DNA of 58,156 nucleotides, from positions 1-58,156 of the forward strand of contig CALRHC010000004.1 in the NCBI GenBank assembly GCA_943359335.1, in the 5' to 3' direction. The stretch's first letter is position 1. Every line of letters starts with the position of its first letter. This document shows, piece by piece, positions 28,426-43,600 of the stretch. The notes beneath the pieces were generated by a model that had not been told where the DNA came from, searched no databases, and was given only the letters and a program-made list of their open reading frames with translations. Origin of the DNA: Candidatus Yanofskyibacteriota bacterium. GTDB taxonomy: Bacteria > Patescibacteriota > Minisyncoccia > JACQLN01. Made by a program: the position numbers and the translations under genes.

Positions 28426-28580
28426 CGGACTCGAACCAGAAAGGGGTCGGGAAAACAAGTGTTTTCCCGTGGCGGAAACCTGCCTGCCGGCAGGCAGGTG
28501 TTAAAACCGAGGGGTTTTAAAGAGCGATCCGCCGACTGGCGGAAAGCGACGTGAGATTCCGGGTCCCGCAACTTATAAAA
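28426..28580 (+). repeat. tRNA-fMet 3'-end duplication with inserted hairpin-rich segment
   Basis: 23-bp exact repeat TCCGGGTCCCGCAACTTATAAAA at 28362 and 28558; inverted T-arm copy CGGACTCGAACC at 28426; CCTGCCTGCCGGCAGGCAGG palindrome inside. Confidence 0.75.
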
Positions 28581-28950: not shown

Positions 28951-28974
28951 GCGGACTTGTCCGCCTCTGGCGGA
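28951..28974. repeat. GACTTGTCCGCC hairpin repeat (tRNA-Asp 3' boundary)
   Basis: gcggacttgtccgcctctggcgga; near-identical to a segment inside trmD. Confidence 0.7.
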
Positions 28975-29045
28975 CCCGACCGGATTCGAACCGGCGATCT
29001 CCTCCGTGACAGGGAGGCGCTTTAAACCAGCTAAGCTACGAGTCC
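28971..29045 (-). tRNA. tRNA-Asp(GTC)
   Basis: GGACTCGTAGCTTAGCTGGTTTAAAGCGCCTCCCTGTCACGGAGGAGATCGCCGGTTCGAATCCGGTCGGGTCCG. Confidence 0.92.
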
Positions 29046-29153: not shown

Positions 29154-29224
29154 AGCGGGATACCAGAATCGAACTGGCGCCTCCACCTTGGCAAGGTGAT
29201 GTACTACCACTATACGAATCCCGC
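29154..29224 (-). tRNA. tRNA-Gly(GCC)
   Basis: GCGGGATTCGTATAGTGGTAGTACATCACCTTGCCAAGGTGGAGGCGCCAGTTCGATTCTGGTATCCCGC. Confidence 0.92.
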
Positions 29225-29254
29225 CTTCGCTAAAGCTTCGGCGGGCAAGCCCGC
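29221..29254. repeat. GACTTGTCC/AGCTTTAGCGAAGGCGG hairpin repeat overlapping tRNA-Gly 5' end
   Basis: Reverse complement GCGGGCTTGCCCGCCGAAGCTTTAGCGAAGGCGG resembles dnaE segment 43160-43193. Confidence 0.65.
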
Positions 29255-31930: not shown

Positions 31931-32641
31931 TTATTTTACTCGCTCCTTCCTCCACTCCTCTATTTTTTTATGATCCCCCGAAAGCAAAACTTTTGGCACT
32001 CGGTATTTTTTACCTTTATATTCTAAAACCTCCGGCCGAGTATAATGCGGATATTCTAGCTGACCTCCCTTTTCTTCCCCTTTCCCCCCTTTTTCCCTTT
32101 TTAATAACCCGCTCCAGTGAGATTCTTCGGCAAGTGAATTTAGCTTAATAACCCCAGGGATTAGACGGCTCACCGCCGACACTACTGCCATTGCAGGAAT
32201 TTCGCCGTCGGTTAAAACATAAGGGCCTACCGAAATTTCTTCCGCCGAGGCGGACAAGTCTGCTTTTAAAACTTTTACAACGCGTTCGTCTATCCCTTCG
32301 TATCTTCCAGCAATAAGGATTATTTGATCAAATTTTTTAGACCAGTCGTAAGCTATTTTTTGGTTAAATTGTTTACCCTTAGCCGAAAACAAAACTATCT
32401 TGGTTTTCTTGCTTTTAGCAATACCGTCTACGGCTTTAATAATAGGATCCGCCATAAGTACCATTCCAGCTCCTCCACCATAAGGTGTATCGTCCACCTT
32501 TTTATGTTTATCTTCTGTATAATCTCGTAAGTTGTGAGTCTTTATTTCTATAAGCTTATTTTTTTGTGCACGGCCCAAAATAGATTCATTAAAATATGAA
32601 TCGAATATCTTTGGAAATATAGTAATTATTTCAAACTTCAT
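31931..32641 (-). CDS. trmD: tRNA (guanine-N1)-methyltransferase
   Basis: 236 aa; MKFEIITIFPKIFDSYFNESILGRA, DDTPYGGGAGMVL, GRYEGIDERV, SVGPYVLTDGEIPAM. Confidence 0.95.
   Translation of the reverse strand: MKFEIITIFPKIFDSYFNESILGRAQKNKLIEIKTHNLRDYTEDKHKKVDDTPYGGGAGMVLMADPIIKAVDGIAKSKKTKIVLFSAKGKQFNQKIAYDWSKKFDQIILIAGRYEGIDERVVKVLKADLSASAEEISVGPYVLTDGEIPAMAVVSAVSRLIPGVIKLNSLAEESHWSGLLKREKGGKGEEKGGQLEYPHYTRPEVLEYKGKKYRVPKVLLSGDHKKIEEWRKERVK
32241..32263. repeat. GACTTGTCCGCC hairpin repeat inside trmD
   Basis: Sense strand gcagacttgtccgcctcggcgga encoding ADLSASAE. Confidence 0.7.
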
Positions 32642-40680: not shown

Positions 40681-43600
40681 TTGGTTAATTTGAACTCGCT
40701 TATGAAATTTTCTCACTTACATACCCATTCTCATTATTCCCTGCTCGATGGCTTAGCCAAAATCGACGATCTTGTTAAACGCGCTGGCGAACTTGGTATG
40801 GATTCACTGGCCCTAACCGATCACGGTGCAATGTACGGCGCCATAGATTTTTACAAAACCGCAAAAAAAGCTGGCATAAAACCAATCGTGGGTTGCGAAC
40901 TTTATGTTTCACGCGAAAGCAGGCTTTTAAAACGTGCGGGCATAGACGACAAGCGCTATCACTTAACGGTGCTCGCCGAAAATATAGACGGCTATAAAAA
41001 TTTAATAAAACTTGTAACCAAAGCCTATTTGGAAGGTTTTTATTATAAACCGCGTGTAGATAAAGAACTTTTACGCGAACATTCTAAAGGCTTAATTGTT
41101 CTTTCAGGTTGTTTTCAAAGCGAGATTTCAACAGCAATAAGAAACAAAAAAGTTGATGATGCCGAAAAATTAATTTACGAATATCAAGAAATTTTTGGGC
41201 GCGAAAATTTTTATTTAGAAATTATGCCTCACGGCGCCGAAGATGAATTAAAATATATTTTAGAAACCTATAAACATCTTTCCCAAAAAACTGGTGCGCA
41301 ACTGGTAGCCACCAACGACGTCCATTATGTAAACCACGAAGATGCCGAAGCCCAAGATATTTTAATTTCGGTAGGCACAGGTACAAATACAAAAGACAAA
41401 GATCGTTTAAGTTTGCTTGAATATAATCTTTCTATGCGTTCGGCCGAAGAAATGTTAAACCTTTTGCCAGATTACCAACACGCCATAGAAAGAACTCACG
41501 AAATTGCACAAAGAACCAACCTAGAATTAGAACTTGGCAAATGGACATTCCCCGATTTTAAATTGCCCAGTGGTACTACAGCCGATAGTGAACTTCGCCG
41601 TTTGGCCGAAGCTGGTTTTGCACACAGAAATTTGGAACGCTCACCTTTATATTTAGACAGAATGAATTATGAGCTGGGGATAATTGAAGCCAAAGGCTAC
41701 GCTCCATATTTTTTAGTGGTAGCCGATCTTTTAAGGTTTGCTCACGAAAATGGAATCTTAACAAATATTAGAGGTTCGGTGGCAGGTTCGCTTTCAACCT
41801 ATTTAACAGGAATTACAAAAGTTAACCCCATAGATTATAAAATTCCTTTTGAAAGATTTTTAAACCCAGAACGCCCTTCTGCGCCCGATATCGATATGGA
41901 CTTTGCCGATAACCGAAGAGACGAAGTTATTGAATACGCTCGCAAAAAATATGGTGAAGATAAAGTAGCTCAAATTGGTACATTCGGAACAATGATGGCG
42001 CGTGCCGCTGTGCGCGATGTGGCTCGTGCACTTGGCCACCCTTATTCTGTTGGCGATGGTATAGCAAAGTTAATTCCCATGGGTTCACAGGGCTTCCCGA
42101 TGACAATCGACCAAGCCTTAAAAATTACACCAGAACTTTCTCAACTATACGAAACCGACACCACTATCGCCGAAGTAATAAACCAAGCTAAAAAAATGGA
42201 GGGTTGTGCCCGCCACATTTCTGTTCATGCTGCTGGTGTTGTTATTAGTCCTCGTCCACTTACAGAATTTGTGCCATTACAGTTAGACCCTAAAGGTGGC
42301 CGAATAATTACCCAATACGATATGCACGCCGTAGAAGATGCCGGGCTTTTAAAATTTGATTTTCTTGGAATAAGAAACTTATCTATTTTAGAAGACACAG
42401 TTAAATTAGCCAAAGAACACCGCAATATAGATTTAGACATAGAAAATATTCCGCTCGACGATAAAAAATCTTTCGAACTTTTGGCTAAAGGCGAAACCAT
42501 TGGCTTATTCCAATTAAACGGTGCAGGTATGACAAAATATTTAAAAGACCTGCGGCCAACAACCATTCACGACATTAACGCTATGGTGGCTTTGTACCGC
42601 CCTGGCCCATTGGAATCTATTCCTAGGTATATAGAAAGAAAACACAATCCACGTTTAATTGAATATTTCGATCCACGTATGAAAGATATTTTGGATCAAT
42701 CTTACGGAATTTTAACTTATCAAGATGATGTTTTAATGGTAGCCATAAAATTGGCAGGCTACAGTTGGTTGGAAGCCGATAAACTTAGAAAAGCTATGGG
42801 TAAAAAAATTCCAGCCGAAATGGAAGCCCAAAAAGCAAAATTTACCGAAGGCGCTGTAAAAAACGGTATGACCGATTTTAAAGCTTACGAACTTTGGAAA
42901 CTTATAGAACCTTTTGCCGCTTACGGTTTTAACAAAGCACATGCGGCGAGCTACGGCCGTGTTGCCTACCAAACCGCCTATGCCAAGGCCAATTTCCCCG
43001 CCGAATTTATGACAGCGGTTTTAACTGCAGAATCCGGCGATATAGAAAAAATCGCCGAAATTATAAACGAATGCACGCGTATGAATATTCCCGTTTTAGC
43101 ACCGAATGTTAACGAAAGTGTGGGCAAGTTTACTGTAATAAAAGGCTCTAAAGACAATAGCGACTTGTCCTCCATAGCTTTAGCGAAGGAGGATAAAATT
43201 CGTTTCGGTTTAGAATCAATTAAAAATGTGGGTGTAAATGTTGTTGCGGCCATTATCGAAGCCCGCGTCAAAGACGGAAGGTTTAAAACCTTATCCGATT
43301 TTATAGAAAGAATTATACATAAAGATTTAAATAAAAAATCTTTAGAAGCCTTAGCCAAAGCTGGTGCGTTAGATAGTTTGGGCGAACGAAACCAAATTTT
43401 AGAAAATATGGATTACCTTTTAACTTTTTCTAAAGAAATGAAGCAGGCTGGTTCTCTTAACCAATCCAGTATTTTTGATAACATTGCCGATTCTGCTCCT
43501 ATTTTAAAATTAAAGAACTCTATTCCTGCTACCGAATCCGTTAAACTGGCTTGGGAAAAAGAACTTTTAGGTTTGTATGTAAGTTCTCACCCATTAGAAC

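Follow-up and report, generated by a model that had tools for sequence, protein, structure and literature searches.

The trmD gene and its in-frame insert

The window, which here means the whole stretch of 58,156 nucleotides analyzed, corresponds to C4, one of the 17 contigs that make up a small (591,612 bp) Patescibacteria genome. The minus-strand open reading frame at 31931-32641 encodes TrmD: it scored 240.9 bits against the TIGR00088 profile (cut-off 195), its AF2 model had a mean pLDDT of 89.6 and the best PDB matches returned by Foldseek were all TrmD. The features of the gene are as follows.

31931..32641, minus strand: trmD, tRNA (guanine37-N1)-methyltransferase, 236 aa, insert-bearing (NCBIfam TIGR00088/NF000648, AF2 model, PDB matches)
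32243..32260, minus strand: 18-bp in-frame insert as placed by protein alignment, D128-A133, DLSASA; missing in L010, L255, L022 and PDB TrmDs
32241..32258, minus strand: the insert parsed as a putative element, CTTG + TCCGCC-TC-GGCGGA (pattern match; boundaries ambiguous by 2 bp)
32241..32254, minus strand: hairpin TCCGCC-TC-GGCGGA with a 2-nt loop (the family's commonest loop is 3 nt); RNA fold -9.3 kcal/mol

The 18-bp stretch, CTTG+TCCGCCTCGGCGGA (32241-32258, minus strand), encodes six extra residues, and as an element it would lie between GCAGA and AGAAATT. The segment of the protein that carries them (..GRYEGIDERVVKVLKADLSASAEEISVGPYVL..) is six residues longer than in PDB TrmDs and nearly all relatives. 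Where the window TrmD reads ..KADLSASAEEIS.., the PDB TrmDs and the relatives examined there read ..KA/EEIS.., confirming the claim of the initial annotation that typical TrmD is shorter at this point. The nearest TrmD in the collection, from L010, has an uninterrupted A-EEIS (..SLDAEEISVG..); it is about 72% identical to the window TrmD, and no close relative supplies an empty site at the DNA level. The peptide was found in no other TrmD examined at that site, so that none of these homologues has the peptide without the DNA repeat. TrmD was not found in the same-genus genomes G002-G004 by protein and HMM searches; one of them, G003, is rated 100% complete.

In the AF2 model the insert falls in the turn that links helix 120-128 to strand 132-137, just before the EEIS strand. 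The initial annotation had asked whether it lies on a surface loop; the TrmD fold that places it in this turn is confidently predicted.

A second copy at tRNA-Asp

The trmD repeat (32241-32263, minus strand, GCAGACTTGTCCGCCTCGGCGGA) was compared with a site 3.3 kb away and with related hairpins of the window.

28951..28974, plus strand: second copy, GCGGACTTGTCCGCCTCTGGCGGA; right arm 28969-28974 inside the tRNA-Asp 3' end; RNA fold -15.0 kcal/mol
28968..29045, minus strand: tRNA-Asp(GTC), CCA encoded at 28968-28970 (ARAGORN, Rfam)
29220..29254, minus strand: related CTTG-tagged hairpin GCGGGCTTGCCCGCC..GGCGGG, overlapping the tRNA-Gly 5' end
43162..43193, plus strand: related CTTG-tagged hairpin GACTTGTCCTCC..AGCTTTAGC..GGAGGA
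28528..28543, plus strand: intergenic hairpin TCCGCC-GACT-GGCGGA

A single substitution and a gap of one base separate the two copies, which are as near to identity as had been proposed, and they are the sole pair matching with at most 3 mismatches in the whole 591,612-bp genome. Fifteen Markov-shuffled genomes gave zero matches with at most 4 mismatches, indicating that a pair of such sites is more than a genome would hold by chance. The second copy had been described as lying next to tRNA-Asp; the site is correct, but the copy more exactly overlaps the 3' end of the gene. The CCA-bearing tRNA end (..GGGTCCGCCA, 28968-28974) supplies the right arm of the copy, which is therefore not independent of the tRNA.

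The expected enrichment of the motif in its own genome did not hold, since GACTTGTCCGCC has only 2 exact copies genome-wide and is not abundant there; enrichment appears only across the phylum. TCCGCC..GGCGGA hairpins number 5 in this genome against 1 in the control, and a looser CTTG-YCC..GGR family has about 8 members, some adjoining tRNA ends. The idea that CTTG is a universal tag in the manner of GTAG was rejected, as CTTG is not enriched over other tetranucleotides among the hairpins of this genome; it is more likely the usual NTTG left flank. Many partial matches to the hairpin at the tRNA-Gly 5' end (29216-29254) occur in genomes G001-G004, which belong to the same family. Another palindrome, CCTGCCTGCCGGCAGGCAGG, is repeated with variants in the window's genome (window 28479-28498; L097:11007, L104:9392, L106:6709), and its family occurs nested in frame as LPAGQAG in the ATP synthase alpha and formyltransferase-like genes of G163.

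Palindromes promote template switching during replication, and either the 24-bp copy that overlaps tRNA-Asp or the one in trmD could in this way have served as template for the other, with no mobile family involved. The two copies are each other's nearest matches in the genome, lie close together, and the right arm of one of them is tRNA sequence, all of which such local copying would explain. It does not account for the presence of the CTTG-led hairpin, in the window form, in 32 of the 286 genomes searched in the class (control 0), nor for similar TrmD inserts in unrelated lineages, where no tRNA neighbour is needed, and we regard it as unlikely, though the strongest of the alternatives.

A hairpin family in Patescibacteria

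The distribution of the hairpin was determined in 380 Patescibacteria genomes. TCCGCCTNTGGCGGA, a TCCGCC-N3-GGCGGA hairpin, was present in 122 of them, with up to 41 matches in one genome; its reversed-sequence control matched in 1/380. With any 3-nt loop, TCCGCC-N3-GGCGGA reached 22-85 copies per genome in five rich genomes (control 0), and in G130 it was the commonest 6+3+6 hairpin (34 copies; the next had 8). Copies were counted by exact pattern, so that diverged copies are missed by these figures. Among 77 genomes of an outgroup phylum there was no overall excess of TCCGCCTNTGGCGGA over control (9 matches against 9), and 5 of the 9 lay in a single genome. That genome, G705 (control 0), may represent either an occurrence outside Patescibacteria or a binning error. 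Viral spread was also considered and rejected; the 30-bp form was present in one IMG/VR contig.

Rich genomes carry a defined 15-bp unit, often doubled to a 30-bp palindrome, both inside and outside genes. The loop was 3 nt long in 83/96 units and the spacer of doubled copies was 0 in 30/33. All 30 doubles scored had a purine-rich first loop and a pyrimidine-rich second loop, which makes the 30-bp form a nearly perfect palindrome. Units are flanked by NTT on the left and AAN on the right (NTT/AAN): T at -2 or A at +2 was found in 92% of ends within ORFs and 88% outside, which ties the flank preference to the DNA rather than to the protein.

Most copies lay within open frames of at least 90 aa (27/34 in G130 and 18/22 in G163). 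The phase TCC GCC NNN GGC GGA, read as SAxGG, was used by 25/27 in G130 (p~2e-10) and 15/18 in G163 (p~2e-5), with frames assigned from the longest open frame and not by a gene caller. These counts take both units of a double separately, so that the figure for doubles over all loci is cleaner: 22/25 in one phase (SAxGGSAxGG; p~2e-8). Among the loci that the CTTG pattern picked out in the taxonomic class, the frame bias was weak (9/17, p=0.08). Since the consensus arms are stop-free in all frames, it is probably selection on the peptide that produces the phase bias.

About 20 conserved genes had counterparts without the insert in G163, in G130 or in the genome of the window. The gap was often exactly the length of the insert, some alignments being looser. 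By sequence resemblance, without individual searches, the insert-bearing genes encode PEP synthase, polymerase I, LepA, ATP synthase alpha, transketolase, XerD, S19, L17, ClpB, TrmD and others, and some of the inserts occur nested together with another palindrome (SAKGG-SLPAGQAG-ASGGK).

A survey of about 100 TrmDs revealed that the protein is a repeated target. The window's own TrmD site is occupied by three different palindromes in three lineages (window, L027 and L250). In L027 a 15-bp insertion, TCCGCCTTTGGCGGA, stands between KL and KIENLS at this site, and L257, which is without it, provides the near-exact empty site KL/KIENLS; at the boundary used by the L027 insert, L250 carries another palindrome, 30 bp long. 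Elsewhere in the protein, G130 carries a 30-bp double between TRPEVY and KKMRVP, modelled in a loop joining two strands, and in L022 and L242 a double read in another phase precedes KIILFSAKG. The TrmD of L036 (L036:1998-2768) has two inserts, an in-frame palindromic element of 60 bp (PGLDPGSRVLDSRFRGND) and PLGRDRSPAKAGTP, and in L041, L252 and L257 an imperfect palindrome encodes ARPTEQSFGR or a similar peptide in frame between KHKK and VDxKPYGG.

A length-variable TrmD loop could also have gained its palindrome by slippage and drift, with no mobile element at all. The same loop is longer by five residues, with no TCCGCC hairpin, in L021, L039, L248, L251 and L257, as this explanation would predict, but the match to the second copy is far above chance, the phylum-wide unit has a fixed length, fixed flanks and a fixed phase, and the L027 insertion is near-exact relative to L257. 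We therefore consider this origin improbable, more so than local copying.

No mobilising enzyme was found; the candidate considered was the Y1 transposase of RAYT/IS200 (PF01797). It is missing from the window's genome and from 9/20 of the richest genomes, including G130, G163 and G295. Its frequency in the rich genomes (11/20) compared with the whole collection (177/380) revealed no link to high copy number (p=0.49). Presence of the hairpin was weakly associated with PF01797 (odds ratio 2.6, p=3e-5). RAYT/IS200 was rejected as a resident mobiliser on its absence here and in 9 of the 20 richest genomes and on the lack of a link to copy number.

We conclude that the trmD insert is probably a diverged member of a family of short palindromic repeats of Patescibacteria that are non-autonomous and protein-coding. 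The trmD copy deviates from the family in its 2-nt loop, its 18 bp in place of 15 or 30, and its right flank AGAA instead of NAN; we infer that it belongs there despite this loop and its CTTG lead. The initial annotation had read the insert as a mobile hairpin tolerated in an essential enzyme. That an in-frame hairpin insertion is tolerated in TrmD is well supported, and presence and absence among orthologous sequences suggest that the elements move. The added peptide appears to be tolerated rather than useful.

The family's unit, the 15-bp hairpin TCCGCC-N3-GGCGGA, frequently occurs as a head-to-head double, the nearly perfect 30-bp palindrome, and may insert, or be copied, at NTT/AAN-like sites. 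It could behave as a coding-compatible selfish repeat: both lengths are divisible by three, the arms are free of stops and the favoured frame encodes a small flexible linker, SAxGG, so that insertions into surface loops of essential proteins would survive selection, those in other frames or in protein cores presumably being purged. In the window's genome, the 18-bp TrmD copy puts DLSASA into the turn preceding the EEIS strand. Whether the phylum as a whole harbours ultra-short mobile palindromes of this kind, adapted to genes, directed to a TT/AA-like target, mobilised by something other than RAYT and extending essential proteins (for example TrmD, ribosomal proteins, polymerase I and ATP synthase) with SAxGG-type linkers in their surface loops, is a broader proposal to which we give about an even chance.

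The hairpin might alternatively act at the RNA level, as a signal for pausing, processing or stability that happens to lie in coding RNA and beside tRNAs. Such a role would fit the stable folds predicted, such as that at tRNA-Asp, and the hairpins adjoining tRNA ends in this and other genomes, but is very improbable given insertions scattered over unrelated genes and missing in orthologues, a strong phase bias indicating selection at the protein level, and no Rfam family matching at the hairpins.

If the family is mobile, it amounts to a natural linker-insertion experiment in streamlined genomes that marks the insertion-tolerant loops of essential proteins, and to an extra source of protein length variation in a minimal-genome phylum. 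Annotation and phylogenetic alignments of core genes would be affected, and the spread of tiny palindromes would be open to strain comparison.

Comparison with known palindromic elements

Discussion of protein-coding palindromes has, to our knowledge, been confined almost entirely to Rickettsia, Wolbachia and a few bacteria rich in REPs, and a literature search of open-licence papers found no earlier report of them in Patescibacteria. The Rickettsia palindromic elements (RPE; Ogata et al. 2000/2002) are found in frame in many conserved genes (PMC2229807, PMC10969869), are 105-146 bp long (PMC2229807) and in R. conorii carry a CGTC terminal tag (PMC3733652). Like RPEs, the Patescibacteria repeats are palindromes that lie in frame in many unrelated conserved genes and occur at RNA genes as well, and both are found in a lineage with small genomes that depends on a host; both are presumed selfish. 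They differ in phylum, in flanks (NTT/AAN in place of the CGTC tag) and in size, 15-30 bp against 105-146 bp with long terminal inverted repeats.

The REPs tagged with GTAG or CGTC, some of which are intragenic (PMC3733652), are likewise short palindromes (20-40 bp), often head-to-head dimers and in some cases within ORFs, and the CGTC class is without a dedicated transposase (PMC3733652). In contrast, the Patescibacteria repeat has neither GTAG nor CGTC in its flanks and has a 6-bp stem with a 3-nt loop. REPs are mostly extragenic, whereas most G130 copies lie within ORFs, and REPs are associated with RAYT, whereas high copy number in Patescibacteria showed no link to the Y1 transposase. The small intragenic MITEs of Neisseria (Correia/NEMIS, 107-bp species) resemble the repeat as inverted-repeat elements fused to reading frames (PMC2229807), but they are longer and are described with TA termini and target duplications (PMC2229807).

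Because length and tags differ, and for REPs also the location and the RAYT link, we do not file the Patescibacteria repeat as a member of the RPEs or REPs. By analogy, the best explanation is that it would work as RPEs do, at a length of 15-30 bp and free of GTAG and CGTC tags.
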